From positions 1,592,501-1,656,500 of the forward strand of contig NZ_AP018827.1 of assembly GCF_003966695.1 (NCBI RefSeq): DNA of 64,000 nucleotides, written 5' to 3'. Each line of letters begins with the position of its first letter. The stretch's first letter is position 1. Source of the stretch: Asticcacaulis excentricus (GTDB lineage Bacteria; Pseudomonadota; Alphaproteobacteria; Caulobacterales; Caulobacteraceae). The notes below the pieces were generated by a model. That model worked only from the letters and a program-made list of their open reading frames with translations, was not told the DNA's origin and made no database searches. This document shows, in pieces, positions 16,182 to 59,138 of this stretch. The position numbers were made by a program, and so were the translations under genes.

Positions 16182-16580
16182 ATGATCTATACCGCCACCA
16201 CCGACGGCGTGACTGTCAGCGTCCGCGTTCAGTTCATTCCGCGCAATGATGACGCCATCCGCGCCCACAAATGGCTGTGGACCTACCACATCACCATTGC
16301 CAATGCTTCAAACCGCGCCCTTCAGCTCAGGACGCGACACTGGCGCATCACTGATGCGCTGGGCCGCGTGCAAACGGTCGATGGCGAAGGCGTGGTCGGC
16401 GAAACCCCGCGCATTCGTCCGGGGGATAGCTACAGCTATGCGTCTAGCTGTCCACTGGATACGGACTCCGGCACCATGGGCGGGCATTATATGTGCGTGA
16501 CGGATGAGGGCGAATGGCTGGCCATACAGGTGCCGCTGTTCTCGCTGGATGCGCCGCAGACCCGGCGCGTGTTGAATTAG
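16182..16580 (+). CDS. apaG: ApaG family protein
   Basis: The 132-residue protein has a fibronectin III-like ApaG fold. Family hallmarks are YHITIANAS, the RHWRITDALGR strand, VDGEGVVGETPRIRPGDSYSYASSCPL and GTMGGHYMC. ApaG has been linked to Mg/Co efflux in enterobacteria, but its molecular role is not settled. It diverges from dcd across 105 bp. Its TAG stop codon (16578-16580) is the first three bases of a family A element. Confidence 0.95.
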   Translation: MIYTATTDGVTVSVRVQFIPRNDDAIRAHKWLWTYHITIANASNRALQLRTRHWRITDALGRVQTVDGEGVVGETPRIRPGDSYSYASSCPLDTDSGTMGGHYMCVTDEGEWLAIQVPLFSLDAPQTRRVLN

Positions 16581-16701
16581 AGCGAAATGACTTTAGGTGG
16601 AAACGCCATTTCGCTCTACATTTTTGTTTTGTCGCGATGTTTTTGCGGAAAACCGCTCACACTTTTGGCTTCGCCGAACTCCGTTTCCGCACATCGCTCT
16701 A
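16578..16701 (-). mobile_element. Family A TA-flanked element, long form (124 bp)
   Basis: TAGAGCGAAATG to CATCGCTCTA. It starts with an imperfect hairpin (GAGCGAAATGACTTT.../...GCCATTTCGCTC), then GTTTTGTCGCGATG and the second hairpin (GCGGAAAACCGC). The left TAG is the apaG stop codon. Confidence 0.85.
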
Positions 16702-16758
16702 AGGCTGCCGCCTGAGCCGCTTCGCCTTGTTCAACACCTATAAACCATTTCAGCGGAC

Positions 16759-16787
16759 CCTCGGCTCAAAACCCATAACCGCCGAGG
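16759..16787 (+). promoter_or_regulatory. Stem-loop covering the ribosome site of the soluble chemoreceptor gene
   Basis: CCTCGGC (16759-16765) can pair with GCCGAGG (16781-16787) around a 15-nt loop. The 3' arm contains the GAGGA ribosome site (16784-16788) for the ATG at 16797, so the folded form would hide it. Confidence 0.35.
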
Positions 16788-16796
16788 AACCGCCCC

Positions 16797-18236
16797 ATGA
16801 CGCAAGCCGCCCTGTCTGGCCTGACGCCGGTGTCCGCTGAGACGACGGACACAGCCTCCGCCCATCAGGTCATCCACCGCATCTCGGATATTGCCGGTTC
16901 CGTCGGGCTCGAACTTCTCTCGGTGTCGGGCAATATCGAGACGGTGGTACGCCGCCATGCCGATCAGACCTGCGCCCTTAAGACACTGGCCGACGCGGCG
17001 GCTGAGGTGTCCGCGCAAAACGCCCGTCTGGTCGATCTGGCCCGTGAGGCCGAGGGTCGGCTGGATCAGTCGGCGCGCGACACCGAAAGCCGCGTCTCAC
17101 AAGCCATTGGCGCCATGGAACACTGGGTCACCAGCGCTGAGGGGCAGGCCTCGCGCATCACCGCCTTGTCCAGCAGCCTCGCCTCGGTGGCGCAGGTGGC
17201 GCGGTCCATCGAAACCATCGCGTCGAACACCAACCTTCTGGCGCTGAACGCCACCATTGAAGCCGCCCGCGCCGGTGAGGCCGGACGCGGCTTTGCGGTC
17301 GTTGCCGCCGAGGTCAAGGCCCTGTCGGCGCAGACGCGCGAAGCCTCCCGCCATATCCAGCAAACCCTGTCGGCCCTGACGCAGGAAATCGAAACCCTGA
17401 CGCAGATCAGCGAGGACAATCTCGACATGGCGCGCGCCGTATCCGGGCAGGGCACCGGCAAAACGTCGTCTCAGGACTCATCTCTGGCCGGTATCGGCGA
17501 AGCCTTTGATCAGGCGCGCGACACCCTGCGCGCCGTCACCGAAGGCGCGGGCCGCATTGAGGGCCATTCCGGTGAACTGCGCGAAGGGCTGGGACAATTG
17601 GCCTCCGATGTTGCGCAACTGGACACCCTGCTGACCGGCGGTAGCCAGCGCCTTGAAAAGGTGGCGATGGACGCCGAAGCCATCATGCAACTGACCTCAT
17701 CGGCGGGTGTCGAAAACGCCGACAGCGCCACTGTGCGCAAGGCCACAGACGCCGCTGAGCGCATCCGTCAGATGTTCGAAGCCGCTCTGGCCAGGGGCGA
17801 GATCGCTCAGGCCGATCTGTTTGACGCCGATTACCGCCCCATCCCCGGCACAAACCCGGCCCAGGTCATGACGCGCTTTGTGGCCCTGACCGACCGCCTG
17901 CTGCCCGATCTTCAGGAAGCCATCCTCAGCAGCGACCCTCAGATTGCCTTCTGTGCCGCGGTGGATCGCAATGGTTTCCTGCCGACACACAACCGCAAAT
18001 TCTCACAGCCTCAGCGGCCCAACGATCCGGAATGGAATACGGCCCATTGCCGCAATCGCCGCCTGTTCAATGATCGCGTCGGCCTGCGCGCCGGGCAAAA
18101 CAGCGGCCCGCCTCTGGTGCAGGCCTATCGCCGCGATATGGGCAATGGTGAATTTGTCATGATGAAGGACGTCTCTGCGCCCATAATCGTGCACGGAAGA
18201 CACTGGGGCGGATTTAGAATCGGTATCCGGCTTTAA
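16797..18236 (+). CDS. Soluble methyl-accepting chemotaxis-like protein
   Basis: The 479-residue protein has no transmembrane segment. Residues 20-250 form a coiled-coil MCP signalling domain; the hairpin tip resembles the CheA/CheW-contact motif ([38 protein letters not shown]). The C-terminal part, about residues 325-479, is a small globular domain ([48 protein letters not shown]) resembling a cytoplasmic PAS/Cache-like sensor. This fits a cytoplasmic receptor reading an internal signal. No other chemotaxis gene is adjacent. A PP2C-kinase gene follows on the same strand 115 bp later. Confidence 0.88.
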
Positions 18237-18351
18237 TTTTTTGCCATAATCGCGGTTTTCGTTTTATCGTTCTGTGACAGAAGGATGGACGTCTTGCATA
18301 CCGGCCCACGCGGGCGCGGGCACAAAGAGCGTCTGAAACACAGGACACTGC

Positions 18352-20139
18352 ATGGCCAGCCTGCCTACCGCCACCCGTCTCAAGGCCGCCGTCGGGTTCG
18401 CCAGCCATATCGGCCGCCGCGAGGACAATCAGGACTTTGCGGCCTCGTGTCTGGCCGATGACGGGTCACATCACGGGCTGGTGGCGGCGCTGGCTGATGG
18501 GGTTGGCGGGCGCAAGGGCGGGCGCGTCGCCGCCGAACTGAGCGTGCGTTCCTTCATCGACGACTATCTCAGCCAGACCGAGGCCCTGTCGCCGCAAAAG
18601 ACCGCCGGGCGCGCGCTGGAAAGCATCAACTACTGGCTCCACCGTCAGGGGCAGAAGGACGAAAACGTCCGCGGCATGAGTTGCGCCTTCACCGGCGTGG
18701 TGATCAAGGGCAACCGCCTGCACTCCTTCCACGTCGGCGACACGCGGCTTTACCGCTGGCGCGAGGGCTATCTGGGTCAGATGACGCAGGATCACAAGCC
18801 CGAAGGCGGCGAGGATTCGCCCTACCTCACCCGCGCCATCGGCTTCGAAGAGGTGGTGCGCATCGACTATCGCATCCACGACATCTTCCCGCACGACCGG
18901 CTGTTGCTGTGTTCCGACGGGATGCACGCCAAGGTGCCGGAAGCCCAGATCAACGCCATCCTGTCCGAACGGCTATCGGCCGATGATACGGCGCAGAAGC
19001 TGGTCGATATGGCCATCCACAATGGCGGCGATGACAATGCCACCGTGCTGATCATCGACATTTTCGAACTGCCCCCCGCCACCGTCAAGGACCTTGACGC
19101 CGCCATTTCGCGCCTGCCGATGCGCGAACCGCCAGAGGTGGGCGAAACCATAGACGACTTCCGGCTGGAGGTCATGCTGGCCGACGGCATGTACAGCCGC
19201 GTGTTCAAGGCGCGCGACCTGTCGGCCACCGGGCCACTTTCGACCGTGGTGCTCAAATTCCCTAAGCCGCACAATCTGGGGGCCGAAACCCTGGCCCGAC
19301 AGGCCTTTGTGCGCGAAACCTGGGTGGCCAGTCGCGTGCAGCACATGTGGATCGGCTCGGTCCTGCAACTGCCGCCCAAGCGCCAGACCTGCCTCTATGT
19401 GGCGCAGCCCTTCTATGAGGGCGAAACGCTGGAAAAACGCCTGTCGCGCAAGCCGGCGATTGGCCTGAGCGAAGGCATCGACATCGCCACCAAGCTGGCC
19501 AAGGCGCTGGGCTCGCTGCACCGGGCAGGCGTCATCCATCGTGACGTCAAACCCGATAATGTGATCCTGCTGAAAGATGGCGGGCTGAAACTGGTTGATC
19601 TGGGCTTTGCGCGCCTGCCCGCGCTTGACGAAAAGACCGGTGTCCTGCCGCCCGGCACCAATAACTACATGGCCCCGGAACTGTTCGATGGTCAGTGGGG
19701 GGATGAGCGCTCGGACATCTTCGCGCTGGGGGTCACCCTGCACCGCCTGTTCACCGGCGGCACCTTCCCCTACGGCGAAAGCGAGCCCTTCACCAAGCCG
19801 ACGCTGAAACGTCCGGACCTTCTCACCCACAAACGTCATGACGCGCCGGGCTGGCTGGAGAGCATCATTCTTCAGTCTCTGGCCCCCAATCCGGATGAGC
19901 GCTTTCAGGACGGGTTTGAAATGGCCTTTGCACTGGAAACCGGCTCTTACGGCGTCAATCCGGCCTCGATCCGTAAGGCCGCGCGCTTCCATCCGGCGCG
20001 CCCGTGGCAGATCGCGACGGCAGTCCTGACGGCGCTGGTGCTGTGGCTGGGGGCCCTGCAACTGGGGCTGATCGCCGGGCCGGACGTCGAGGCCACCAAG
20101 GCCTTCCTGCGCGAGCATGGGTTTCCGGAGTTGAAATAA
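18352..20139 (+). CDS. PP2C phosphatase-Ser/Thr kinase fusion, membrane-anchored
   Basis: One 595-residue protein holds two opposed activities. Residues 10-240 are a PP2C phosphatase: RREDNQDF, ALADGVGGRKGG with metal-binding Asp, SFHVGDTRLYRW, LLLCSDGMH and GGDDNATVLII. Residues 265-555 are a Hanks-type kinase: VVLKFPKP with the Lys, catalytic HRDVKPDNVILL, then LVDLGFAR in place of DFG and the APE-like MAPELFDG. The change from DFG to DLG keeps the metal Asp. A C-terminal hydrophobic stretch (IATAVLTALVLWLGALQLGLIAG) should anchor it in the inner membrane. Substrates are unknown. Confidence 0.92.
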   Translation: MASLPTATRLKAAVGFASHIGRREDNQDFAASCLADDGSHHGLVAALADGVGGRKGGRVAAELSVRSFIDDYLSQTEALSPQKTAGRALESINYWLHRQGQKDENVRGMSCAFTGVVIKGNRLHSFHVGDTRLYRWREGYLGQMTQDHKPEGGEDSPYLTRAIGFEEVVRIDYRIHDIFPHDRLLLCSDGMHAKVPEAQINAILSERLSADDTAQKLVDMAIHNGGDDNATVLIIDIFELPPATVKDLDAAISRLPMREPPEVGETIDDFRLEVMLADGMYSRVFKARDLSATGPLSTVVLKFPKPHNLGAETLARQAFVRETWVASRVQHMWIGSVLQLPPKRQTCLYVAQPFYEGETLEKRLSRKPAIGLSEGIDIATKLAKALGSLHRAGVIHRDVKPDNVILLKDGGLKLVDLGFARLPALDEKTGVLPPGTNNYMAPELFDGQWGDERSDIFALGVTLHRLFTGGTFPYGESEPFTKPTLKRPDLLTHKRHDAPGWLESIILQSLAPNPDERFQDGFEMAFALETGSYGVNPASIRKAARFHPARPWQIATAVLTALVLWLGALQLGLIAGPDVEATKAFLREHGFPELK

Positions 20140-20166
20140 CCTTCTTCGGCCGTTGGTATAAGGTCA

Positions 20167-20270
20167 AACCACAGATTTCACAGATTTCACAGATTAAGAT
20201 GTCTTTATCATAAAGTCATCGCGACCAAAGCCGCAAAGGCGCGAAGCACTCATCTGTGAAATCTGTGGTT
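20167..20270. repeat. Inverted-repeat element with CACAGATTT iterations
   Basis: A 19-bp perfect inverted repeat (AACCACAGATTTCACAGAT at 20167-20185; its complement at 20252-20270) encloses about 65 bp. The left arm is extended by a further ACAGATT unit. The interior contains GCCGCAAAGGCGCGAAG. It lies between the kinase fusion and the convergent nuclease gene and has no coding content. Similar CACAGATTT-type repeats occur in scattered bacterial genomes. Confidence 0.7.
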
Positions 20271-20349
20271 CCCCAAACATAAGGCACTCAGAGACCATTT
20301 TCCTTGCACAGCACAGCTCCCACGGCTCTATTTCCTTTTCGTGGGGCGA

Positions 20350-20838
20350 TTATTGACTGTGCCGGAAATCCTCCGGGGCCCTGACCTCATAGGCCCAGGC
20401 GCCGGTGCGGGTGCGTTTGGCCGTCTCTTCGGCGGCGACATAGCGGTCGGAATAGCGGCGATAGGCCAGAGCCAGCCCGGCCCGTACCTGCGCCTCGCCC
20501 AGATCGCGGCCTTCGACGGCGCAAAAGGCCAGTATGCGCCCATACCGGTCTTCGCCCTGCGGGTCACAAACGACCTCGGCCCCGGCCACCAGACGTTTCA
20601 GTTGCCGACTGGCCGCCTCGCCACAGGCAAAGGCCCCGCAGCGCTGATCATATTCAAAGGCATCGACGCCTTCGAGGCGCACCTCAACACCGTCCACGCG
20701 CAGGGAATCGCCGTCTATGGCCTCGGCCTCGCCGCTAAGCGTTCCAGTTTCCAGTTTGGACTCTTGCGGCGATGAAGACGGCGCGGGTTTACACGCCGCC
20801 AGCGCGGCCAGCATCAGAAGGCCCGCCCAACGCCTCAG
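20350..20838 (-). CDS. Thermonuclease (SNase-like) lipoprotein, probable CTG start
   Basis: This is an exported nuclease of the staphylococcal-nuclease fold: IDGDSLRVDGVEVRLEGVDAFE, then DRYGRILAFC with the expected Asp-Arg, and a typical C-terminal TGAWA. The first ATG (20812-20814) leaves only MLAALAAC, too short for a signal peptide. Reading upstream gives LRRWAGLLMLAALAAC, a complete lipoprotein signal with a LAAC lipobox, if translation begins at CTG 20836-20838. That codon overlaps the preceding gene's stop as CTGA. The product would have 162 residues and be anchored at Cys15. Domain call firm, start tentative. Confidence 0.8.
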   Translation of the reverse strand: MRRWAGLLMLAALAACKPAPSSSPQESKLETGTLSGEAEAIDGDSLRVDGVEVRLEGVDAFEYDQRCGAFACGEAASRQLKRLVAGAEVVCDPQGEDRYGRILAFCAVEGRDLGEAQVRAGLALAYRRYSDRYVAAEETAKRTRTGAWAYEVRAPEDFRHSQ

Positions 20839-21371
20839 CGGGAGGCATCCAGTTGCGCCAGCACGACCGGCGCGCCCTTGTGCAGGGGCATATAGGCCGA
20901 GGCGATCTGGCTCAGGGGCACCGGCCCCTGCGTCAGGTAGCCGAATCCAAACAGAATGAGCATCAGATAGCGCAGAGCCAGCGGGTCGCCCTTGGCCATA
21001 CCGGCCTTGGCCTTGCCGATCTTCAATGACGGCTGCTTCGTCTTGTGGCGCAGACCGATCAGCACTTCGGGTGTGACGCCATTATCGAGCGCCAGTCGTG
21101 TATTGATCTCGGTAAAGCTCGGCTGTCTGAAGCCGCGCAGGTTCAGCACGGCAGCAAGGGCGGCCACCACAACACCCGCCGCCAGAACGCCCAGATGCCC
21201 CAGCGGGCTCAAGGCCGCAAATATCCCCCATTGCGCGGCCACGGCAATGGCACCGGCCAGCAGCAGAAACGGCGTCAGGGCGGGCAGGATCTGCTCCCAG
21301 ATCATCACCACGTGCGTCCAGAACAGCGCCCGGTTCAGCTTGGATAAGGGTTTTGTCCGTTGCAGCTTCAT
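20835..21371 (-). CDS. Short DUF4175-like (TIGR02302-type) membrane protein, probably truncated
   Basis: The 178-residue product has hydrophobic segments at about residues 25-70 (ILPALTPFLLLAGAIAVAAQ and LGVLAAGVVVAALAAVLNL) and near 140 (LALRYLMLILFGFGYL), and SFTEINTRLALDNG between them. This matches the N-terminal region of the large DUF4175/TIGR02302 proteins, usually around 800 residues, that commonly follow lysA in Alphaproteobacteria. The long periplasmic part is missing. GGGGGA precedes the ATG at 21371; an ATG at 21383 is the alternative. It follows lysA by 24 nt and overlaps the nuclease gene. Confidence 0.6.
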   Translation of the reverse strand: MKLQRTKPLSKLNRALFWTHVVMIWEQILPALTPFLLLAGAIAVAAQWGIFAALSPLGHLGVLAAGVVVAALAAVLNLRGFRQPSFTEINTRLALDNGVTPEVLIGLRHKTKQPSLKIGKAKAGMAKGDPLALRYLMLILFGFGYLTQGPVPLSQIASAYMPLHKGAPVVLAQLDASR

Positions 21372-21395
21372 GCCGTCCCCCATAGACGTGCGGAT

Positions 21396-22712: not shown

Positions 22713-22741
22713 TTGAAAACAGATTCCTGTGAGGCGGAAAG

Positions 22742-22810: not shown

Positions 22811-22816
22811 ATGATT

Positions 22817-24519: not shown

Positions 24520-25204
24520 GAATGAGCCTCTGGACGAAAACACGGACACGGCGAACGCCGAAGCGCAGGCCCCGCAGACAGAGCGGACCAGACCGCCGCG
24601 CAAGCTGAAATTCAACCTGATCGTCGCGGGCCTGCTGGTCCTGATAATCGCCGTCTCCGTAGCGGCTGTGGTGCTGTTCCGTCAAGCCGAGACTGACGGG
24701 ACGGTCGCCGCCGAAAGTGGGCCGGTCGCTGAAGGGCCGCTCAAAACCTACGCCACCGGCGCGCTGGCCAAGCTGGAAACCCACGCCGCCCCGCGCCCCA
24801 TCGAAGACATCAGCTTCCTCGATGGCGAAGGCAAGACGGTCAAGCTGTCGGATTTCAAGGGCCGCGTGGTGGTGCTGAACGTCTGGGCGACGTGGTGCGC
24901 GCCGTGTAAAGTTGAGATGCCGACCCTGGCCAATCTGCAAAAGGGCTATGACCCGCAAAAGGTGCTGGTCCTTCCGCTCAGCATCGACAAGGCCGAGGAC
25001 AAGGCGGCGGTCGAAAAAGAACTGAAGCTCAGCGGCGGCCTGCCCGTCTATATGGACTCCGAAATCCAGCCAATGAGCAAGTGGGGCATTGTCGGCATGC
25101 CAACAACGATCATCCTCGATAAAAACGGTCAGGAAGTCGCGCGCCTTGGCGGCGAGGCCAAGTGGGACGCACCGGAGGTCAAGGCGCTGCTCGACGCGCT
25201 ATAG
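24518..25204 (+). CDS. tlpA: TlpA-like membrane-anchored thiol-disulfide oxidoreductase
   Basis: The 228-residue protein has a short acidic cytoplasmic tail, one transmembrane helix ([22 protein letters not shown], about 37-58) and a periplasmic thioredoxin-like domain. The active site is [13 protein letters not shown], and the cis-Pro motif is GMPTTIILD. TlpA-type proteins reduce cysteines for cytochrome c and cytochrome oxidase assembly. GAAGGA precedes the ATG. The gene is divergent from argH with overlapping start codons. The TAG stop lies just inside the left end of a family A element: the base after its TA is T instead of G. Confidence 0.92.
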
Positions 25205-25291
25205 CGATGTGCGGAAACGGAGTTCGGCGAAGCCAAAAGTGTGAGCGGTTTTCCGCAAAAACATCGCGACAAACAAAGATCTAGAGCGAAG
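25200..25291 (+). mobile_element. Family A element, 3'-truncated copy
   Basis: It matches the long form from the TA at 25200-25201 through GTGCGGAAACGGAG, the GCGGTTTTCCGC hairpin and ACATCGCGACAAA to CTAGAGCGAAG, then stops. The last hairpin is replaced by family C-like sequence (25300-25365). The tlpA stop codon sits in its first bases. Confidence 0.7.
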
Positions 25292-26707: not shown

Positions 26708-26882
26708 TCATACCTCCCTGGCTATGCCGGGGAGGGGGACCGCGCCCGAAGGGCGGGGTGGTGGGGTGTCTTGCGATATCCCCACCTGCTCAGTTTCCTG
26801 AATTCAGTAAGAACCCCCACCACCGCATCTCACTCACTACGTTCGTTCGTGCGGTCCCCCTCCCCAACACGTTGGGGAGGTA
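26708..26882. repeat. Inverted pair of family C repeats
   Basis: One copy (26708-26772) reads from CATACCTCCC to GGTGGTGGGGTG. The second (26811-26882) reads in the opposite direction, from CCCCCACCACCGCATCTC to GTTGGGGAGGTATG. They could form one long hairpin downstream of hisC. Apart from about 90 bp that probably carry the Rieske promoter, the 271-bp gap holds nothing else. Confidence 0.75.
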
Positions 26883-26974: not shown

Positions 26975-28078
26975 ATGCCTGATCAGTCCGCCCCGCCCAT
27001 CGCCAAAGAACGTCTTGTCTTCGGGCAGGGCTTCCTCCGCGACGCCTGGTATTTTGCGGCACTGGCCGACGATCTGAAGCCCGGCAAGCTGCAACGCTAC
27101 GAGATTTTGGGCGAGCCGGTGTTGCTGGCCCGCGACACGCAGGGCAAGGCCTATGCGATGCGCGACATCTGCCCGCACCGCGCCGCGCCCTTGTCCGCCG
27201 GCAAGATGATCCCTGACCCCAAGACCGGTCAGCCGGTGGTGCAGTGCCCCTATCACGGCTGGACCTTTGGGACGAATGGTGGCTGCACGGCTGTGCCCTC
27301 CCTGACCGCCGATCAGCCTATGGACGTCGACCGCATCCGGGTGCGATCTTACGCCGTTAAGGAACAACAGGGCATCGTCTGGATCTACATGACCGCCGAT
27401 GCGCGCCGCCCGGCGGAGCCCGATCATCAGCCGCCCCTGCTGCCCGGTGTGGTCGGGGGCAAACCCATTATCGTTGAGAGCATGGATTTCGACAGCCACA
27501 TCGACCACGCGGTGGTGGGGCTGATGGACCCAGCCCACGGCCCCTATGTGCATCAGCAATGGTGGTGGCGCTCCTCCAAGAAGCAGCTCGAAAAGGCCAA
27601 GGCGTTTGAGCCGCGTGAGTTCGGCTTTGCGATGGTGCGCCACGCGCCGTCAAAAAATTCGCGCGCCTATCGTATTCTGGGCGGGGCCCCGGCGACCGAG
27701 ATCACCTTCCGCCTGCCCGGTGTGCGCTATGAGCATATCGAGATCGGTGAGCGGCAGATTCTGGGCCTCACCTGCCTGACACCGGTGCACGCCACCAGGA
27801 CGCGCATCACGCAGATCTTCTGGTCGGATCACGCCATTTTCCGCGCCATTGCGCCGATCTTCAAATATGGCACCAGAGCCTTCCTCAAGCAGGACGGCGA
27901 CATGGTCAATCTGCAAAACGAAGGGCTGAGATACGATCCGTCACTCCTGTGGATCGACGACGCCGACACACAGGCCAAGTGGTACCAGCAACTCAAAAAA
28001 GAGTGGATGGCGCACCGTTCCGAAGAACGCCCCTTCGCCAACCCGCTGAAACCCGCCACGCTGAAATGGACCAGCTAG
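26975..28078 (+). CDS. Rieske [2Fe-2S] non-haem iron oxygenase
   Basis: The product is 367 residues. The N-terminal Rieske domain binds a 2Fe-2S cluster through CPHRAAPLS (near residue 66) and CPYHGWTF (near residue 90). The catalytic domain has the mononuclear iron pattern D-x2-H-x4-H in MDPAHGPYVH near residue 190. This is the layout of ring-hydroxylating and aliphatic-ring oxygenase alpha subunits. No reductase or ferredoxin gene is adjacent, and the substrate is unknown. The ATG at 26975 is preferred over a TTG two codons earlier. The stop TAG is the left end of a family A element. Confidence 0.9.
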   Translation: MPDQSAPPIAKERLVFGQGFLRDAWYFAALADDLKPGKLQRYEILGEPVLLARDTQGKAYAMRDICPHRAAPLSAGKMIPDPKTGQPVVQCPYHGWTFGTNGGCTAVPSLTADQPMDVDRIRVRSYAVKEQQGIVWIYMTADARRPAEPDHQPPLLPGVVGGKPIIVESMDFDSHIDHAVVGLMDPAHGPYVHQQWWWRSSKKQLEKAKAFEPREFGFAMVRHAPSKNSRAYRILGGAPATEITFRLPGVRYEHIEIGERQILGLTCLTPVHATRTRITQIFWSDHAIFRAIAPIFKYGTRAFLKQDGDMVNLQNEGLRYDPSLLWIDDADTQAKWYQQLKKEWMAHRSEERPFANPLKPATLKWTS

Positions 28079-28179
28079 AGCGATGTGCGGAAAAGTGCGA
28101 GCGGTTTTCCGCAAAAACATCGCGACAAAACAAAAATTTAGAGCGAAATGGCGATTCCACTGAAAGTCATTTCACTCTA
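28076..28179 (+). mobile_element. Family A TA-flanked element, short form (104 bp)
   Basis: TAGAGCGATGTGCGG to TTTCACTCTA. The left TAG is the Rieske gene's stop codon. The right end, read on the reverse strand, is the TAG stop codon of dinB, so one element separates the two convergent genes exactly stop to stop. A GANTC site is at 28153-28157. Confidence 0.85.
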
Positions 28180-31490: not shown

Positions 31491-31562
31491 ATACCTCCCC
31501 AGTTTACTGGGGAGGGGGACCGCACGACGCTTGCGGAGCAAGCTAGATGCGGTGGTGGGGGT
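31491..31562 (+). repeat. Family C G+C-rich intergenic repeat within the chv-hprK unit
   Basis: CATACCTCCCC-AGTTTACT-GGGGAGGGGGACCGCACGA ... GATGCGGTGGTGGGGG. It lies between chvG and hprK and extends to an alternative hprK ATG. Confidence 0.75.
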
Positions 31563-31638
31563 TCTTACTTATTCAACACGCTATACAGGTGGACACAACG
31601 AAAGCCCCTCACCGAAGGCAGGAGGGTATAGGGATGGG

Positions 31639-40384: not shown

Positions 40385-42049
40385 ATGAAACGCACGCTGA
40401 TCTGTCTCGGACTGATCGCCAGCTTCGCCGCCAGTGGGGCGTTGGCGCAGGTGTCTGGCGGTATAGACGGCGCGCGGATTTCGCAGGACGTAAAAGTGCT
40501 GGCCTCCGATGCTTTTGAAGGGCGCGCCCCCGGTACAGCCGGCGAAGCCAAGACCATCGCCTGGCTGAGCGAACGCTTCAAGGCGCTGGGCCTTGAGCCC
40601 GGTGGTGAAAACGGCAGCTATCTTCAGACCGTGCCACTGACCCATACGCGCCTGTCGCCGCCTTCGCTGTTGAACCTGCGCACGGCCGCAGGTACGCAGC
40701 CCCTCACCCACGAACAAGACATCTATCTGGCCACAGCCCGCCCGGTCGAGCGCCTGTCGGTCAAGGACCTGCCTATGGTCTTTGTCGGCTATGGCGTGAA
40801 GGCCCCGGAGCGTCAGCGCGACGATTTCAAGGGCGCGGACCTCAAAGGCAAGATCGCCGTCTTCCTGATCAATGATCCGGATTTCGAAGCCGCCGCCGAT
40901 GAGTCGGTGGCGGGGCGTTTCGGCGGCCGGGCCATGACCTGGTACGGGCGCTGGGTCTATAAGTATGAGATTGCCGCGCGTCTGGGGGCCGCCGGCGCCC
41001 TGATCATCCACGATACGCCGGGCGCGGGCTATGGCTGGAGCACGGTCACCGCCCCGCATTCCGAAGTCTTCGACGTGGTGCGCCAACCCGATGCGCTTCA
41101 GGCCGTGCCGTTTCAGGGCTGGCTGAACGGCGCAGCGGCCGCGGACCTGTTTGGCAAAGCCGGGCTGGACCTCAAAGCCTTGCGTGTGGCGGCGCGTCGG
41201 GATGATTTCAAGCCGGTCGCCATCGGGGATGCGCGCCTGTCGATCGAGGCCGCGGTCAAGAGTGATCAGGTGCAGAGCCATAACGTCATCGCCCGCCTGC
41301 CTGGCAAAAGCCGCCCGGACGAGTCGATCCTGTACGGCGCGCACTGGGACGCCTATGGCATAGGTCCGGCGGACGCGCAGGGTCGCACCCTCCGCCCCGG
41401 TGCCAATGATGACGGGCTGGGGACCGCCGCCGTGCTGGAAGTCGCCCGTCAGTTTGTGCAGGGACCAAGGCCTGACCGCAGCGTCGTCTTTGCGCTATGG
41501 ACCGCCGAAGAACGCGGCCTGCTGGGCTCGGAAACCTATGCCAGCCGCCCGACCTATCCGCTGGAAACCACGGTCGCCAATATCACGCTGGACGTGCTGC
41601 AAACGGCAGGCAAGGCAAAGGATATGGTGTTGATCGGCATGGGTCAGAACGATCTGGAAGACCGTCTGGCGACGCTGGCGCAGACTCAGGGGCGCACCCT
41701 GACCCCGGATTCCGCTCCCGAACGCGGTCTGTTCTATCGCGCCGACCACTTTTCGGTGGCCAAGCGCGGCGTGCCCACCCTGCTGATCATGGGACTGGGC
41801 GGCGGGGCCGATCTGGTCAAGGGTGGACGCGCCGCCGGAGAGCGCTGGGTCGCCGACTATACGGCCAACTGCTATCACAAGACCTGCGATGCGTGGAGCG
41901 CCGACTGGGACCTCAGCGGCGCGGTCGAAGATATCGACCTCGCCTACCGGTTGGGGCGTGATCTGGCCCATAGCCGCGACTGGCCACAATGGAAGGCGGG
42001 CTCGGAATTCCGCCCTGTGCGGGACAAGAGCGCCGGTGTGCGGAAGTAG
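40385..42049 (+). CDS. Secreted M28 family metallopeptidase with PA domain
   Basis: The 554-residue protein has a signal peptide ending ALAQ near residue 22. It is an aminopeptidase-type di-zinc enzyme: GAHWDAYG (zinc His and Asp), GANDDGLGTAAVLEVAR (bridging Asp), WTAEERGLLGS (catalytic Glu-Glu) and a C-terminal YHKTCDAW region with the last His. Residues about 130-270 form a PA-type insert (VFVGYGVKAPERQRDDFKGADLKGKIAVF). The enzyme would act in the periplasm or outside. The stop TAG is the left end of a family A element. Confidence 0.93.
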   Translation: MKRTLICLGLIASFAASGALAQVSGGIDGARISQDVKVLASDAFEGRAPGTAGEAKTIAWLSERFKALGLEPGGENGSYLQTVPLTHTRLSPPSLLNLRTAAGTQPLTHEQDIYLATARPVERLSVKDLPMVFVGYGVKAPERQRDDFKGADLKGKIAVFLINDPDFEAAADESVAGRFGGRAMTWYGRWVYKYEIAARLGAAGALIIHDTPGAGYGWSTVTAPHSEVFDVVRQPDALQAVPFQGWLNGAAAADLFGKAGLDLKALRVAARRDDFKPVAIGDARLSIEAAVKSDQVQSHNVIARLPGKSRPDESILYGAHWDAYGIGPADAQGRTLRPGANDDGLGTAAVLEVARQFVQGPRPDRSVVFALWTAEERGLLGSETYASRPTYPLETTVANITLDVLQTAGKAKDMVLIGMGQNDLEDRLATLAQTQGRTLTPDSAPERGLFYRADHFSVAKRGVPTLLIMGLGGGADLVKGGRAAGERWVADYTANCYHKTCDAWSADWDLSGAVEDIDLAYRLGRDLAHSRDWPQWKAGSEFRPVRDKSAGVRK

Positions 42050-42170
42050 AGCGATGTACGGAAACGGCGTTCGGCGAAGCCAAAAGTGTGAGCGGTTTTC
42101 CGCAAAAACATCGCGACAAAACAAAAATTTAGAGCGAAATGACGATTCCTCTTAAAGTCATTTTGCTCTA
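42047..42170 (+). mobile_element. Family A TA-flanked element, long form (124 bp)
   Basis: TAGAGCGATGTACGG to CATTTTGCTCTA. Its left TAG is the M28 peptidase stop codon. Its right end is 1 bp from the brnA stop codon. A GANTC site lies at 42144-42148. Confidence 0.85.
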
Positions 42171-42171
42171 G

Positions 42172-42510
42172 TTAGCGTCGTTTCAGATCGGCCAGCATTT
42201 CCTTGCGGAGAATGGCATTCAAGCGGGTCTGATACCCCCTGCCGGACGCTTTCAGCCAATCGAGCACATCGGCATCAATGCGAACCGTCGCCTGCTGTTT
42301 GACGGGTTTGTAAAAGCGGCCACGCACAGCGTTTTTGAAAAAGTCGTCGGTCAGTGGCGGGATGTCGCTATAGTCGATGTCACTGTCCGGACGCTCGGAG
42401 AGGGCTTTGAGTTCGGCCCTTTGTTGATCTGTGAGCGGCGGAGGATTGTCGATATCCAGTTCATATCTGACGACTTTGGAAACGGTTGATTTCATATTGC
42501 TGTTTTTCAT
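42172..42510 (-). CDS. brnA: BrnA family antitoxin
   Basis: The 112-residue product is the DNA-binding antitoxin of a BrnT/BrnA system. The C-terminal ribbon-helix-helix reads QATVRIDADVLDWLKASGRGYQTRLNAILRKEM, typical of BrnA. The N-terminal part (YSDIPPLTDDFFKNAVRGRF) resembles the toxin-binding segment. The start codon lies inside the 3' end of the brnT frame, the usual overlapping order. Since brnT carries a stop, brnA may persist as an orphan antitoxin or autorepressor. Confidence 0.85.
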   Translation of the reverse strand: MKNSNMKSTVSKVVRYELDIDNPPPLTDQQRAELKALSERPDSDIDYSDIPPLTDDFFKNAVRGRFYKPVKQQATVRIDADVLDWLKASGRGYQTRLNAILRKEMLADLKRR

Positions 42511-45764: not shown

Positions 45765-46020
45765 TAGATCATTATGATTTCTGGTAGAAATATAATGATC
45801 TAGATGTTTAGTCCCTCGCCGGGCGGCGGCTTCGCCACCTTGGCCGCCGCCTCAATGGCAGCTTGAGCGGAATGATTCCACTAGAGCGATGTGCGGAAAC
45901 GAAGTTCGGCGAAGCCAAAAGTGTGAGCGATTTTCCGCAAAAACATCGCGATAAAACAAAAATGTAGAGCGAAATGGCGTTTCCACCTAAAGTCATTTCG
46001 CTCTAGAAATCATTCCGCTC
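45765..46020 (-). repeat. Family B intergenic repeat, interrupted by a family A element
   Basis: In reverse orientation this repeats the copy at 412-549. The TAGATCATTATG hairpin (45765-45803) comes first, then CCCTCGCCGGGC, GGCCGCCGCCTCAATGGC, and the near-palindrome GCGGAATGATTCCAC | GAAATCATTCCGC, which is split by the insertion at 45883-46005. With it, the 405-bp gap between polA and higB is almost completely repeat-derived. Confidence 0.8.
45883..46005 (+). mobile_element. Family A element inserted in a family B palindrome (TA duplicated)
   Basis: This 123-bp long-form copy is bordered by TA at 45883-45884 and 46004-46005. Removing the element and one TA restores the palindrome found intact at 414-443, base for base (allowing for orientation). 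This is direct evidence of insertion with TA target duplication. Confidence 0.88.
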
Positions 46021-47194: not shown

Positions 47195-47204
47195 GGTGAC
47201 ACCC

Positions 47205-47342
47205 CACCACCACGCCTTTCAGGCGCGGTCCCCCTCCCCGCACGTCGTGCAGGGAGGGGTAAGATTATCAGAGCTTCATGACTTTTTAAACCGCCCACAG
47301 ATAGGCGCCCCCCCCTACACCTCTCTCTGGCGGGGAGGGTGG
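47205..47342. repeat. Family C repeat and short variant
   Basis: CACCCCACCACCACGCCTTTCAGGCGCGGTCCCCCTCCCCGCACGTCGTGCAGGGAGG (47203-47262) is followed by a shorter relative, CCCCCCCCTACACCTCTCTCTGGCGGGGAGGG (47309-47340). These fill the space between the gloA and DUF559 genes. A probable hairpin GCCGTTCGGAATTCCGGGCGGC (47363-47385) follows and may terminate gloA. Confidence 0.6.
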
Positions 47343-51903: not shown

Positions 51904-52005
51904 TAGAGCGATATGTCGAAAAGTGTAAGCGATTTTCGACAAAAATATCGCGACAAAACAAAAGTTTAGAGGGGAATGGCGCTTCCATTTGGAATCATTC
52001 CGCTC
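51904..52005 (+). mobile_element. Family A/B hybrid element, diverged
   Basis: The left half is family A short form (TAGAGCGATATGTCGAAAAG...ATCGCGACAAAACAAAAG). The last hairpin ends TGGAATCATTCCGCTC, which matches the family B palindrome, suggesting recombination between families. It has a GANTC site in GGAATC. Confidence 0.7.
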
Positions 52006-52975: not shown

Positions 52976-53188
52976 CGTCGTATACAGAACTTCATTACGC
53001 CGAAAAACAGGCAAAAAATAGACCTGACCTCTAAAAAAGTGTAACCCTGTAACATGAAGTGGCCTGTCCGGAGAATTCCTCGGGTGCGTTGTTTTAAACA
53101 ACACGCATGACGATCTGGATTTTTTGGCGTTAACATGGTTGATACAGGCCGGTTATTTTCTCAAAGCCTGTTGCTGAGCGAGCCTGCG

Positions 53189-53389: not shown

Positions 53390-53396
53390 GCCGTCT

Positions 53397-53966: not shown

Positions 53967-53972
53967 GACTTT

Positions 53973-54129
53973 GACCGCGAAAAACACGAAAAGCACAAAC
54001 TTCTTTGCGGGGATAGTCCGCATACAGCGCGGTAACACTCAGTGTGTGGGAAGCGCCGTCAAGGCCCTTCGGGCACAAGCCGTCAAGCACACACCGTTCG
54101 TGTTTTTCGTGTTTTTCGTGTTTTTCGTG
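53973..54129. repeat. CACGAAAAACACGAAAA-type inverted-repeat element
   Basis: The left end has GCGAAAAACACGAAAAGCAC (53977-53996). The right end has three GTGTTTTTC-type units in tandem (54098-54129), the complement of the left. The 100-bp interior shows no gene. The build resembles the element at 20167-20270: short A+T-rich iterations as inverted ends around a G+C-rich core. Confidence 0.65.
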
Positions 54130-54137
54130 GCTAACTC

Positions 54138-54452
54138 TTATTTTGACGCACTTGCGGCCGAAGCCGCCGGCTGATCCAACGGCCTGGGCGAGCCATTGGA
54201 CGCGCCTTTGGCGTCTTCGGTCGGCCACAGGATCTTTTGCGGCTCACCCGCCTTACGTTTGGTCAAAAGCGGTAGATAGACCGGCGTTTTGCACGCGCGG
54301 TACTTGTCCGACCACCACCCGCCATTGGCCTCACACTTGCGGCGCGGCATTTCGTACAGCGCGCCATAGACCAGAATGCCGATGCTGGCCACTATGAAGA
54401 CCCCCAGCGCGATTAACTTGACGCGAAGGATAAGATTTTTGTCGGTTTTCAT
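54138..54452 (-). CDS. Small single-span membrane protein of unknown function
   Basis: The 104-residue product begins MKTDKNLILRVKLIALGVFIVASIGILVYGALY, a probable N-terminal anchor or uncleaved signal. A periplasmic part follows with three Cys, two of them in the spacing CEANGGWWSDKYRAC, and a Pro/Ala/Ser tail. I do not recognise a family. It stands alone, opposed to its neighbours. Confidence 0.7.
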   Translation of the reverse strand: MKTDKNLILRVKLIALGVFIVASIGILVYGALYEMPRRKCEANGGWWSDKYRACKTPVYLPLLTKRKAGEPQKILWPTEDAKGASNGSPRPLDQPAASAASASK

Positions 54453-54655
54453 ACGGCAGGCTTCCGCAACGGCGCGATCAGTTGAGTGCCCGTTTCCATG
54501 CCTTCAAACCGCGCCACAGGCAAGTGAAATGGTTGCCGTTGAGATCGGAAAGCCAATAAAATGCGCGGGTTTCCGCCACGACACCGATTGACTTTGAGGG
54601 GCAGCGGCGTCAGTAAACGTCATCGAATTATAGCTTGCTGCGAGGAAAGCTCACC

Positions 54656-55402
54656 ATGAAGGTACTGGTACCCGTCAAGCGGGTGTTGGACTACAATGTC
54701 AAGGTCCGCGTCAAGTCTGACCAGACCGGCGTCGATCTGGCCAATGTCAAGATGGCCATGAACCCCTTTGACGAAATCGCCGTCGAAGAGGCGGTGCGCC
54801 TCAAGGAAAAGGGCACGGTGACCGAGATCGTCGCCGTCTCCATCGGCGTCGCGCAGTGCGAGGCGATCCTGCGCACGGCTCTGGCCATGGGTGCCGATCG
54901 CGGCCTGCTGATCGAAACCGATCAGGACCTTGAGCCGCTGGCCGTCGCCAAGGTGCTGAAGGCCGTAGTGGCTCAGGAAACGCCGGACATCGTGCTGATG
55001 GGCAAACAGGCCATTGATGGCGACAACAACGCCACCGGCCAGATGCTGTCGGCCCTGCTCGACTGGCCGCAGGCGACCTTTGCCTCGAAGGTGGAGATCG
55101 CAGGTTCCGAAGCGCTCGTCACCCGCGAAGTCGATGGCGGTCTGCAAACGCTTGGCGTGCAGCTTCCGGCGGTCATCACGACCGATCTGCGCCTCAATGA
55201 GCCGCGCTACGCCTCCCTGCCCAACATCATGAAGGCCAAGAAGAAGCCGCTCGATACCAGGGCACTGGCCGATTACGGCGTCGATGCGGCGGCGCGCCTG
55301 ACGGTGGTCAAGGTCACCGAGCCGGCCAAGCGGTCGGCGGGTATCAAGGTCGATAGCGCCGATGCCCTTATCGCTAACCTCAAGACGGCAGGAGTTCTCT
55401 GA
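54656..55402 (+). CDS. etfB: Electron transfer flavoprotein, beta subunit
   Basis: The 248-residue subunit, with EtfA, carries electrons from acyl-CoA dehydrogenases to the membrane quinone pool. [20 protein letters not shown] opens it; [47 protein letters not shown] and [21 protein letters not shown] are characteristic, the last being the recognition-loop region. GAGGAAA precedes the ATG. The stop overlaps the etfA start (TGATG). Confidence 0.95.
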
Positions 55403-56334
55403 TGGCGGTTCTGGTTATTGCCGATCACGACGGCGCACACCTGCGCGACACGACGCTGAAGGTCATCACGGCGGCGCAAAAGCTGTCGGGGGATATCGAC
55501 GTGCTGGTCTATGGCGAAGCGTCTGCCGTGGCCGCTCAGGCCGCTGCGGCGGCGGGCGTGCGCAAGGTGCTGACGGCCGAAAGTGCCGAGCTGAAGGCCG
55601 ACATTGCTGAGGCCGTTTCGGCCCTGATCGTGTCGCTGGCCGGTGGCTATGACGCCATCGCCCTCCCGGCCACGGCTTCGGGCAAGAATGTCGCGCCGCG
55701 CATCGCCGCCGCGCTCGACGTTTCGATCATTTCCGACGTCATCGAAGTGGTGGCGGGCGACACCTTCGTGCACCCCATCTATGCGGGTAATGCGCTGGAA
55801 ACCGTTAAGACAGTGGACGCCAAGAAGGTGTTGACCGTGCGTCCGACGGCCTTTGCGCCGGTGGCGGCGACAGGTGGTTCGGCGGCGGTCGAAGCCGTGG
55901 CCGTTCCGGCGGTGACGCTGAAAACGCGCTTTGTGTCGGACGAAAAGGTCGTCTCGGATCGTCCCGAACTGGGTGCGGCCAAGGTGGTGGTGTCCGGTGG
56001 CCGGGCGCTAGGTTCGGCCGATGAGTTCAAGGCCGTGCTGGAGCCCCTGGCCGACAAGCTGGGGGCCGCGGTTGGCGCCTCGCGCGCAGCGGTCGATGCA
56101 GGCTATGCCCCCAATGACTATCAGGTGGGGCAAACCGGTAAGGTCGTGGCGCCTGAGCTCTACATCGCCGTCGGTATTTCGGGCGCTATCCAGCACCTGG
56201 CCGGTATGAAGGACTCCAAGGTCATCGTCGCCATCAACAAGGACCCGGAAGCCCCGATCTTTCAGGTCGCCGATTTCGGTCTGGTCGAAGATTACAAGAC
56301 CGCCGTCCCGGCTCTGGTCAAGGCGCTGGGTTAA
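55402..56334 (+). CDS. etfA: Electron transfer flavoprotein, alpha subunit
   Basis: The 310-residue FAD-binding subunit has C-terminal FAD motifs [58 protein letters not shown], and [22 protein letters not shown]. The ribosome site lies inside etfB. Both subunits are complete. A 260-bp gap with two family C repeats separates it from the hydroxybutyryl-CoA dehydrogenase gene. Confidence 0.96.
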
Positions 56335-56343
56335 ACGCTGTTC

Positions 56344-56522
56344 TATACCTCCCTGGCTATGCCGGGGAGGGGGACCGCACGAGCCTGCGAAGCCGGTGAG
56401 ATGTGGTGGTGGGGTTTCTTTTTTGAACTTCGTCACTGTGTAAAGGGACGTATAGCCAGATACCCCACCACCACGCCTTTCAGGCGCGGTCCCCCTCCCC
56501 AACAAGTTGGGGAGGTATAATT
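56344..56522. repeat. Inverted pair of family C repeats
   Basis: The first copy (56344-56419) runs CTATACCTCCC ... GGTGGTGGGG and the second (56463-56522) runs in the opposite direction, CCCCACCACC ... TTGGGGAGGTATA. They are separated by 43 bp and fill the etfA-hbd gap. Confidence 0.78.
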
Positions 56523-56594
56523 TTTTCTGGGCCCTTGATTACCCGGTGGGGCGGTTTAAGCTCCTGCCCTAATAACAAGTACCGCGGGTTCAAA

Positions 56595-57473
56595 ATGACA
56601 GAGATCAAAGTCGTCGGCGTTATCGGGGCAGGGCAGATGGGGTCGGGCATTGCGCAGGTGTGCGCGCAGGCAGGCTACGACGTCTTCCTCTACGATCAGC
56701 AGGCCGCCGCCATCGCCAAGGCGATCGAAAAGATCAACAAGGGCATCGCCCGGTCGGTCGAAAAGGGCGTCATCACGGCTGAGACAGGCGCCAATGCGGT
56801 CAAGCTGGTCAAGCCGGCGGCTATGGCCTCGGAACTGGCCGACTGCGATCTGGTCATCGAGGCGGCGACCGAAAACGAAGACATCAAGAAGGCCATCTTC
56901 CAATCGGTGTCCGAACACCTGAAACCCGAAGCCATTCTGGCGTCGAACACCTCATCCATCTCGATCACGCGACTGGCCACGGCTTCGGATCGTCCGACGC
57001 GCTTTATCGGCCTGCACTTCATGAACCCGGTGCCGATCATGAAGCTGGTCGAAATCATCCGCGGCATCGCCACCGAGACCGACACCTATGAGGCGGCAGT
57101 GCGCTTTGCCGAAAGCCTCGACAAGATCACCGCCAATGCGCAGGACTATCCGGCCTTTATCGTCAACCGCATCCTGATCCCGATGATCAACGAAGCCATC
57201 TACACCCTGTACGAAGGGGTGGGGACGGTCGAAGCCATCGACACGGCCATGAAGCTGGGGGCCAATCACCCGATGGGGCCGCTGGAGCTGGGCGATTTTA
57301 TCGGTCTGGATACGGTGCTGGCCATCATGAACGTGTTGTATGACGGCCTGTCGGATTCCAAGTACCGCCCCTGCCCGCTGCTGGTGAAGTATGTTGAGGC
57401 CGGCTGGTATGGTCGTAAGACCGGGCGCGGCTTCTATGACTATCGCGGCGAAAAGCCGGTTCCGACAAGGTAG
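56595..57473 (+). CDS. 3-Hydroxybutyryl-CoA dehydrogenase
   Basis: This NAD(P)-dependent enzyme (292 residues) interconverts acetoacetyl-CoA and 3-hydroxybutyryl-Co[30 protein letters not shown] is the Rossmann motif; [52 protein letters not shown] (catalytic His) and [11 protein letters not shown] follow. It sits downstream of etfBA, fitting short-chain acyl-CoA metabolism. The ATG at 56595 gives the family N-terminus. Confidence 0.95.
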
Positions 57474-57480
57474 GTTTCGC

Positions 57481-57939
57481 GTGCTCACGGCCCGCCGCCC
57501 GCTGTTCCTGTGGTTTAGTCTGGCGCTGCTGGCGGCGGCGATCCTGCACGCCTGCGTGTGGTTCGCGGCGCGCGTCTTTGCGGCGCAGGGCCTTCTGGCC
57601 GCCAGTGAAGGCGCGCGTCAGATGGGCCTGTCCCTGTTCTGGATGGTGTGCGCGACGTCCCTGTGGCTCATTCAGGGGCCGAAGAACCGCCTGCACGCGG
57701 TCGGCCATGTGATCGGCTGCGCCTTCCTTGTCTGCTCCTTGGGGTCGGTCATGGCCTTCAGCAACCTGACCCTCAGCCAGAATTTCGAACTGAGTTTCAG
57801 CAATCTGCTGGTCTTTGCGCTGGTGGCCGTGCCGATGGTCGCCAGTCAGGTCCTGCTGGCCGTGCCGTCCGCCGTCGTGTTCCAACTGATCCTGCTCAAG
57901 AGCCCGCCGCAGGTCGCAGCCGAGGCCCCCGCCGCATGA
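57481..57939 (+). CDS. Multi-pass membrane protein of unknown function
   Basis: Read from GTG 57481 (AAGGTAGG upstream), the 152-residue product has four hydrophobic spans (LFLWFSLALLAAAILHACVWF, GLSLFWMVCATSLWLI, AVGHVIGCAFLVCSLGSVMAF, NLLVFALVAVPMVASQVLLAVPSAVVFQLILL). No family was recognised. It starts 7 nt after the dehydrogenase stop and overlaps the DUF418 gene by 4 nt (ATGA), so it belongs to that operon. An in-frame ATG at 57436 would overlap the dehydrogenase gene. Confidence 0.72.
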   Translation: MLTARRPLFLWFSLALLAAAILHACVWFAARVFAAQGLLAASEGARQMGLSLFWMVCATSLWLIQGPKNRLHAVGHVIGCAFLVCSLGSVMAFSNLTLSQNFELSFSNLLVFALVAVPMVASQVLLAVPSAVVFQLILLKSPPQVAAEAPAA

Positions 57940-59114
57940 GTGCCAAGCGCTATCCCGCCCTTGACTATATTCGCGGGTTCGCGCTGCTGGGCATATTGAT
58001 CGTCAATGCCCCGGCCTTTGGCTGGCCGCTGGAGGTCTATATGAACCCGGCGCGTGCCACGATCCCGTTGAGCGACCCCGACCGTCAGGCGTGGTGGGTC
58101 ATCCATACCTTTTTCGAGTCGAAATGCCTGACCCTGTTTGCCATGCTGTTTGGCATCAGCCTGTTTCTGGTCGGGCAAAAAGACGACCCGGCGACTCCGG
58201 TGACGCAGACCGTGCGCTTTCGGCGTCTGGTCTGGCTGGCCCTGATCGGCGTCGGCCACGGCGCGGCCATCTGGGTCGGCGATATCCTGCTGATGTATGC
58301 CCTGTGCGGCCTGTTCTATATCCTGACCGTTCGCACGCCGCATCTGTTGCGCTGGGGGATTTTCGCCTGGGCTCTTGGCGGCCTTATGGTGGTGGGGGCC
58401 GGGTTTATCCTGAGCTTTGTGCCGCGTGAGCAACTGGGCGAGGCCCTCAGCGGCAGTGACGGCCTGAGCTTTGCCGAAACGATCCGCCTGATGCAGGGGA
58501 CGTTTGCCCAATCCCTGCACGCCAATTTCGTCATGTGGGCGATGAGCATATTCTCTCAGATCGCCGTCTTTGCGCCCAAGGTCATCGGCCTGATGATGAT
58601 TGGTCTGGGCCTGTTCAAGGTGGGCTATTTCGAGGCGCGCCGCACCCTGTGGCATCTGTTGGCGATCATTATAGGCACGGTGGCGCTGGGGGTCATAGGC
58701 TGGCAAAACCTGATCATCCTGCGCGAAAACTTCCCCGAGCCGGAAATCTATGGCTCGCACCGCGCGGCGGCGGAGTTCCTCAGTCTCTTCGTCAGTCTCG
58801 GCTATGCCAGCGCCCTGATGCTGCTGAGCCGCCTGCCGGTGGCGAAGGGCGTGACCGCCCTGCTGAGCCCGGTGGGACGCATGGCCTTTACCAACTATCT
58901 CAGCCAGTCGCTGATCATGACGGCGATCTTCTATGGCGGGCGTGGGCTGGGCCTCTACGGGCAAGTATCGCTGTCGCAGATGGTGCCGATTGTGGCCAGC
59001 ATCTGGGTGTTTCAGATCGTGGTCAGCAGTCTTTGGCTGCGCGCGTTCCGCTATGGCCCGTTTGAATGGGTGTGGCGCTGCCTCAGCCACGGGCGCTGGG
59101 TGGCCCTTCGCTGA
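57936..59114 (+). CDS. DUF418 (YeiB-like) membrane protein
   Basis: The 392-residue polytopic protein begins RYPALDYIRGFALLGILIVNAPAFGW, the DUF418 signature. About eight to ten membrane spans follow, including LVWLALIGVGHGAAIWVGDILLMYALCGLFYILTV, and the C-terminal DUF418 block is FTNYLSQSLIMTAIFYGGRGLGLYG...FQIVVSSLWLRAFRYGPFEWVWR. The family is related to acyltransferase-type membrane proteins; function unknown. The stop TGA falls inside a family A remnant. Confidence 0.92.
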   Translation: MSAKRYPALDYIRGFALLGILIVNAPAFGWPLEVYMNPARATIPLSDPDRQAWWVIHTFFESKCLTLFAMLFGISLFLVGQKDDPATPVTQTVRFRRLVWLALIGVGHGAAIWVGDILLMYALCGLFYILTVRTPHLLRWGIFAWALGGLMVVGAGFILSFVPREQLGEALSGSDGLSFAETIRLMQGTFAQSLHANFVMWAMSIFSQIAVFAPKVIGLMMIGLGLFKVGYFEARRTLWHLLAIIIGTVALGVIGWQNLIILRENFPEPEIYGSHRAAAEFLSLFVSLGYASALMLLSRLPVAKGVTALLSPVGRMAFTNYLSQSLIMTAIFYGGRGLGLYGQVSLSQMVPIVASIWVFQIVVSSLWLRAFRYGPFEWVWRCLSHGRWVALR

Positions 59115-59138
59115 ACTCCGTTTCCGCACGTCGCTCTA
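59105..59138 (-). mobile_element. Family A remnant spanning two convergent stop codons
   Basis: CTTCGCTGAACTCCGTTTCCGCACGTCGCTCTA matches about 34 bp of one end of the long form. Two stop codons lie in it: TGA of the DUF418 gene (59112-59114) and, on the reverse strand, TAG of the chorismate mutase gene (59136-59138). Confidence 0.75.

Follow-up and report, generated by a model that had tools for sequence, protein, structure and literature searches.

CcrM-associated intergenic repeats (CIR) occur in Caulobacter and other alphaproteobacteria and, in the portions consulted of a review, are described as intergenic sequences of about 110 bp with two inverted-repeat arms joined by a linker and with GANTC in the loop of one arm; their termini are apparently TA, according to a table with an incomplete header, and their mobility is stated to need further information (PMC2229807). 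Here, we report on a miniature element that recurs in a window of 64,000 nucleotides from Asticcacaulis excentricus (G000:C1:1592501-1656500; G000 denotes this 3.79-Mb genome in three contigs) and whose terminal TAG is the stop codon of several genes. Judged by the published description, the element has the same two-arm-and-linker anatomy and the same intergenic sites as CIR, but it differs in that only 24 of 61 copies carry GANTC at a fixed place in the loop. The best mechanistic parallel is RUP of Streptococcus pneumoniae, a 107-bp element with a TA target, IS630-like ends and an excess between convergent genes, for which IS630-Spn1 has been proposed as the mover (PMC3049150, PMC2229807); the two elements differ in sequence and host, and no stop-codon rule is described for RUP in the available excerpts of these papers. 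In Brucella, the palindromic repeats Bru-RS1 and Bru-RS2 (103-105 bp) are associated with the insertion sequence (IS) IS711, which inserts at YTAR (Y, C or T; R, A or G) with duplication of TA (excerpts of PMC2266754, PMC3163539 and PMC2267715), but IS711 uses Bru-RS as its target, whereas the ends of the present element themselves point to IS630 and away from an IS427-type element. In S. pneumoniae, 36 annotated genes have a stop codon supplied by a BOX repeat, with no strong evidence of truncation (PMC3049150); these repeats resemble the element in supplying stops but are a different element, for which the consulted part of that paper describes no explanation in terms of TA or YTAR. QMITE1 overlaps gene ends by 2 and 3 bp (PMC5896051, in excerpt). 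ISY100 inserts at TA by cut and paste with TA duplicated, and IS630 of Shigella prefers CTAG according to a title cited in the same paper (PMC2170065, in excerpt); both insert at TA as the element does but are autonomous, and the excerpt describes no stop-codon consequence for them. Within the accessible portions of the literature searched, no stop-codon rule was described for TA elements, BOX and QMITE1 being the nearest cases. The repeat is of a known kind, and its partner, target rule and stop-codon consequence appear to be new. We presume that RIME1 of rhizobia is also akin to it.

The reading that we favor, with a probability of roughly 0.78, is that the element would be a non-autonomous transposon (miniature inverted-repeat transposable element) of the CIR kind, that its movement in trans into YTAR, with duplication of TA, is most likely due to an IS630-type (Tc1/mariner) transposase, and that this target together with the tolerance of gene ends explains the re-making of stop codons. 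Insertions at YTAR inside genes would be harmful and hence lost, those between divergent genes would be depleted, and those around gene 3' ends, where most YTAR sites would be stop codons on either strand, would be tolerated. An in-frame TAR can only be a stop codon. For this reason, stops would be the most frequent of the YTAR sites at which insertion near a gene end is tolerated, and the element with its initial G would keep landing on and re-making them; its entry into Y-TAA or Y-TAG would leave TAG at the same codon and the protein unchanged, and two convergent genes with one common TA would both keep their stops. The data show the anatomy, the target, the empty sites, the unchanged gene ends and the differences in copies between near relatives; which transposase acts, and what part purifying selection plays, we infer.

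The element is bounded by GAGCG...CGCTC and has two hairpins with an A-rich linker, GACAAAACAAAAAT, between them; hairpin 1 most often reads GCGATGTGCGGAAAA...TTTTCCGCAAAAACATCGC, and hairpin 2 is TAGAGCGAAATGGC...GTCATTTCGCTCTA. A sequence-only reading had reported eight copies plus a remnant of one TA-flanked element in the window; these are real, and all nine places were recovered (Table 1), except that the copy placed at 45883 starts one base earlier. The ends that it held to be shared are found in most copies but not at 25200, where the left end is mutated and the right end lost, or on the right at 51904. Also borne out is the distinction between forms of 104 and 124 bp, which are separated by a 20-bp piece in hairpin 1 and account for 32 and 10 of the 61 genome copies, respectively. 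For the motif TAGAGCGA, shuffles predict 0.94 occurrences and the window has 17; the one at 63702 belongs to no element copy. Stems are of at least four kinds with the pairing retained, and 13 of the 19 predicted stem pairs are altered on both sides in some copy, which is compensatory. GANTC is present anywhere in 29 of the 61 copies, compared with a share of 0.34 in shuffles. The covariance model of the element spans 104 positions with two stems plus the linker and matches the two-arm CIR layout of about 110 bp. In Rfam, there was no gathering match in the window and no match with E up to 1 overlapping the copy at 16578, and membership of the element in an Rfam family was rejected on these results.

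In the search of the full genome and relatives that the sequence-only reading had suggested, the core pattern (up to 3 mismatches) was found at 79 places in the genome against 11 for a control, and a few of the 79 are thus likely to be chance matches; 61 copies were usable, and 18 were dropped for want of two readable ends. The covariance model, built from 45 copies, has 123 matches in G000 and also matches in all of the 25 congeneric genomes searched, with at most 150 scored per genome, and the element was present in 33 of 120 genomes sampled across the order, representing 16 of 29 genera. The element is intergenic and multi-copy in Caulobacterales and kin. The congeneric set used below comprised 71 matches, of which one was excluded because it runs into a contig end and 2 of the remaining 70 went unused, and the set from other genera comprised 47, of which 3 were left out because their ends were not element ends; both sets are the best-scoring listed copies and hence a subset.

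With regard to the target, YTAR was found at 56 of the 61 copies, compared with 436 of 2154 intergenic TA sites (20%) and 894 of all 9055 TA sites (10%); 57 copies have T or C immediately before the left TA, and 60 have A or G immediately after the right one. The rule repeats in the other congeneric genomes (63 of 68 copies) and in other genera of the order (35 of 44, 25 of these being CTAG). Copies are depleted in divergent regions (5/52 versus 119/523 YTAR sites) and favored in convergent ones (21/52 versus 104/523).

The terminal TAG had been claimed as the stop codon of apaG, the Rieske oxygenase gene, dinB, the M28 peptidase gene and the chorismate mutase gene, and all five assignments hold; genes were called by a home-made hexamer scorer trained on the fetched stretches and named from Pfam. 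Genome-wide, 25 of the 61 copies with readable ends supply the stop of a neighboring gene, by the left end in 11, by the right end in 9 and by both in 5, the last being convergent genes that once shared one TA. The stop-bearing ends thus counted are 30, 16 left and 14 right, with no orientation preference. Stops are supplied by 24 of 68 copies in the other congeneric genomes and by 10 of 44 in the other genera. The codon rebuilt from the far flank, evaluated at 28 ends, was TAA in 19, TAG in 8 and TAT in 1, and about two thirds of the entries therefore changed TAA to TAG; one of 27 rebuilt codons in the congeneric set was not a stop. Just one of the 79 core-match places is spanned by a gene call, itself weak, in a test that a gene-splitting insertion could escape.

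Insertion leaves its trace already within the window, where the copy at 45882-46005, collapsed to one TA, restores the empty form of another hairpin repeat (family C, see below) seen at 413-450, and this nested copy shows that TA is duplicated on insertion. Stop-bearing copies were then compared with orthologous loci: for 16 of them, 180-base flanks joined by one TA were searched in five near relatives, and 11 sites were read in at least one relative, giving 26 alignments, none with the element, and the junction was a single TA in 22 of them, the remaining 4 having TG or CA there. The other five queries (copies 4, 19, 23, 28 and 73) were not spanned in the fetched loci, and the copy at 28076 was given no empty site because the downstream synteny differs in relatives. 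Of 31 gene ends read in relatives that lack the element, 30 have, after at least 50 open codons, a stop (TAA, TAG or TGA) at the identical codon, and the one exception stops one codon earlier; likewise, the 16 Asticcacaulis orthologues read of the Rieske gene (26975-28078), whose nearest relatives in a protein search belong to that genus, all end at the corresponding codon. Both the proposed duplication of TA and the proposed silent entry into TAA or TAG, with TAG re-created, are thus supported, the latter also by the 27 of 28 rebuilt codons that are TAA or TAG; element entry is silent, not truncating. Element copies differ between near relatives. In G014, matches are split at three sites by gaps of 93-109 bp, as a shared copy may give, and in G019 a different element subtype, twice in tandem, occupies the corresponding Rieske stop as read by eye; the covariance-model scores of the latter are weak (E 0.05 and 0.3), and this independent hit rests on sequence reading.

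Given these insertions, the question is whether stop codons are special beyond being YTAR. The sequence-only reading had proposed that stops are targeted or selected for, and had asked how often they are hit relative to random TA sites; against any TA near genes, stops are indeed in excess in the own genome (23 of 57 observed, 7.9 expected), in the congeneric set (24 of 66, 7.8 expected) and in other genera (10 of 27, 1.6 expected). The excess shrinks with YTAR sites stratified by gene order as the null but does not vanish: 19/52 versus 11.9 expected (z 2.5) in the own genome, 21/61 versus 14.4 (z 2.1) in the congeneric set and 9/23 versus 3.2 (z 3.7) in other genera, leaving a 1.5- to 2.8-fold excess (49 observed versus 29.5 expected, a hand sum over the three sets). 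This remainder weighs against our reading, as do the unstratified YTAR null (25/61 versus 15%, P 1e-6), the within-region any-TA null (23 versus 18.4 expected, P 0.028), the use of a home-made gene scorer and the source of the background TA and YTAR sites, which came from stretches fetched for holding copies. A transposase or partner that actively seeks stop codons beyond the YTAR rule, for example, via translation termination or transcript ends, would account for such an excess; we nonetheless consider it improbable. The within-region YTAR null speaks against it (19 observed, 17.5 expected, P 0.22), albeit with only 10 informative regions, a weakness for our reading, and so does the occupancy of YTAR sites, which declines with distance and is 40/168 at stops, 5/31 at 1-10 bp downstream, 12/57 at 11-25 bp, 11/105 at 26-60 bp, 21/140 at 61-150 bp and 14/192 beyond 150 bp (pooled, 17/88 at 1-25 bp and 32/245 at 26-150 bp). 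Occupancy at stops is similar to that at 1-25 bp downstream (p 0.43), but it exceeds that of all YTAR sites 1-150 bp downstream (p 0.013), which again favors stop-seeking. Unrelated YTAR ISs, furthermore, also land in stops, as described below. We read the occupancy pattern as tolerance near gene ends combined with the fact that most YTAR there are stops, with a modest unexplained excess remaining. For the most part, the data can be explained without special targeting of stop codons, and of the earlier claim only this residual stratified excess is left.

For the partner, loci with IS427-type (DUF4096) and IS630-type (DDE_3) transposases in 25 genomes were scanned for TA-flanked inverted repeats. 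An IS630-family IS of 1048 bp was found in G008 (L273:981-2028) with the ends GAGCGGGATGACGTTTAA and GAGCGTGATGACATTAGT, each adjoining TA; two frames overlap in it, with helix-turn-helix matches in the first and DDE_3 in the second, and its left TAG is the stop of a 326-codon frame. Among related loci, G022 was found to have both a right and a left end of this type, and G002 and G011 a right end. Six IS630-type ends agree with element right ends at 14-16 of 18 positions, where one of 20000 random 18-mers reached 14. The element and autonomous IS630-family ISs in congeneric genomes thus have terminal inverted repeats in common, and the right-end match makes the claimed kinship to Tc1/mariner-IS630 likely. 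Several points tell against this assignment: the same six ends agree with element left ends at just 11-14 of 18; four of the six were chosen by likeness to the first IS; the L273-type end was not found, in that scan, in related IS630 copies of G019, G012 and G004; and the L273 IS has matches in 8 of the 25 congeneric genomes and none in G000. Because of this last absence, we infer the transposase from the ends only, and the partner IS may have been lost from G000 or may act from incoming DNA. The two DDE_3 transposases of G000 (L276, L284) were considered as partner and rejected, with no blastn match to the L273 IS.

An IS427-type transposase of the IS5 family could also be the mover, like IS711 of Brucella, which duplicates TA at YTAR; we think this improbable as well. 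Five IS427-like copies in G000 stand at YTAR with TA at both ends, so that the use of YTAR is shared with these ISs, to the detriment of our reading, and IS711 targets YTAR and favors Bru-RS repeats (excerpts of PMC2266754 and PMC3163539). One end from each of six such ISs, however, agrees with the element at 8-11 of 18 positions, which is within the spread of random 18-mers, and an IS427-like partner was rejected on this ground, the IS630-type ends matching better. Both kinds of IS bear on the stop codons. We examined 21 ISs, chosen as YTAR-flanked inverted-repeat pairs, and the share of YTAR among them is therefore no result; all 21, which are IS427-like or IS630-like and represent about 14 types with transposases of two unrelated families, have G as the first base following TA, and in five cases the site is the stop codon of a coding-like frame. 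The stop consequence hence belongs to the target and the first base and not to this element alone. Stop codons might even be a general safe harbor for G-initial YTAR transposons, with the G perhaps kept because it silences entry at the TAA or TAG stop, the tolerated site that is most exposed, and with TAA turning into TAG over time, a proposal that we advance tentatively and regard as rather doubtful.

Another alternative, about as unlikely as the IS427-type mover, is that the hairpins have a host function, such as transcript end, RNA stability or GANTC methylation, and that selection places them behind genes. The kept stem pairing with its compensatory changes, the fixed-position GANTC and the preference for convergent regions are consistent with such a function, but transposition also predicts paired ends, copies differ between near relatives, and left-end and right-end stops are about equally frequent; a terminator-like orientation was rejected on this lack of bias. 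That stops arise by insertions cutting off gene tails at an in-frame TA, for which the one TAT and the one congeneric non-stop codon would speak, is very improbable and largely refuted by the unchanged gene ends in relatives, including the Rieske orthologues.

Movement into YTAR with tolerance of gene ends, our preferred reading, explains how a repeat can come to form the stops of numerous genes with no selection for this function, and it supplies a candidate transposase open to testing and a target rule for CIR-like repeats. For annotators, such TAG codons are insertions, not conserved signals. These results also suggest that mobile DNA shifts stop usage from TAA to TAG; TAG is read only by release factor 1.

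Table 1. Element copies, stop codons formed by element termini, and other repeats (window positions unless a locus is named)
Feature	Position	Strand	Basis
Element copy, 124 bp, GCGCATT subfamily, TA at both ends	14452..14575	-	
Element copy, 124 bp; end 16578-16580 is the apaG TAG stop	16578..16701	-	
Truncated copy; mutated left end (TATAGCGA), other sequence in place of right hairpin	25200..25289 (right limit approximate)	+	
Element copy, 104 bp; left end is the Rieske oxygenase stop, right end the convergent dinB stop	28076..28179	+	
Element copy, 104 bp, intergenic, supplies no stop codon	37928..38031	+	
Element copy, 124 bp; left end is the M28 peptidase gene stop	42047..42170	+	
Element copy, 124 bp, inside hairpin of family C repeat	45882..46005	+	
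Element copy, 104 bp, right end decayed to CTCAA	51904..52007	+	
Remnant of one element end; TAG is the chorismate mutase gene stop	59105..59138	-	
TAG stop of apaG, element terminus	16578..16580	+	gene calls, distance to gene end
TAG stop of Rieske gene, element terminus	28076..28078	+	gene calls, distance to gene end
TAG stop of dinB, element terminus (right end)	28177..28179	-	gene calls, distance
TAG stop of M28 peptidase gene, element terminus	42047..42049	+	gene calls, distance
TAG stop of chorismate mutase gene, remnant terminus	59136..59138	-	gene calls
Family C repeat	413-550		
Family C repeat	45765-45885		
Family C repeat	60108-60201		
Family C repeat	L125 774-912		
Family B repeat	14398-14453		
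Family B repeat	26728-26865		
Family B repeat	31491-31571		
Family B repeat	47198-47258		
Family B repeat	56364-56519		
Family B repeat	63174-63285		

Around individual copies, we noticed that a BrnA-type antitoxin gene (42172-42510) adjoins the copy at the M28 peptidase gene. The copy at 28076-28179 lies at a synteny break, its flanking genes being apart or inverted in the nearest relatives, which suggests a rearrangement between element copies. Elements in tandem that share or nearly share an end TA were seen at L144 2566-2793 and G011:C2:30091-30294, the latter pair by coordinates only; each element end is itself YTAR, and copies can thus insert anew at the ends of their own kind with TAG preserved.

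Other repeats were also noted. Family C, likewise a hairpin repeat bounded by TA, has a linker resembling that of the element (AAACAAAAATCTAGATC), and in L125 its terminal TAG serves as stop codon for a small gene that immediately precedes another; we take the two to be kdpF-like and kdpA-like, respectively. Family B is a GC-rich repeat, CCCCACCACC...GTGCGGTCCCCCTCCCC, found in many places. In G000, furthermore, five copies of an IS110-family IS were found (C1:1667221, 1888421, 2048579 and 2202236, and C3:89915; L440-L444), four of which are 1166 bp; the far end of L443 was not found, and Pfam was run on two copies. Each of the five interrupts the end of a CIR-type element, in the arrangement CGCT-IS-CTCTA, and judging from these junctions, this IS is predicted to be site-specific with the element terminus as its target.

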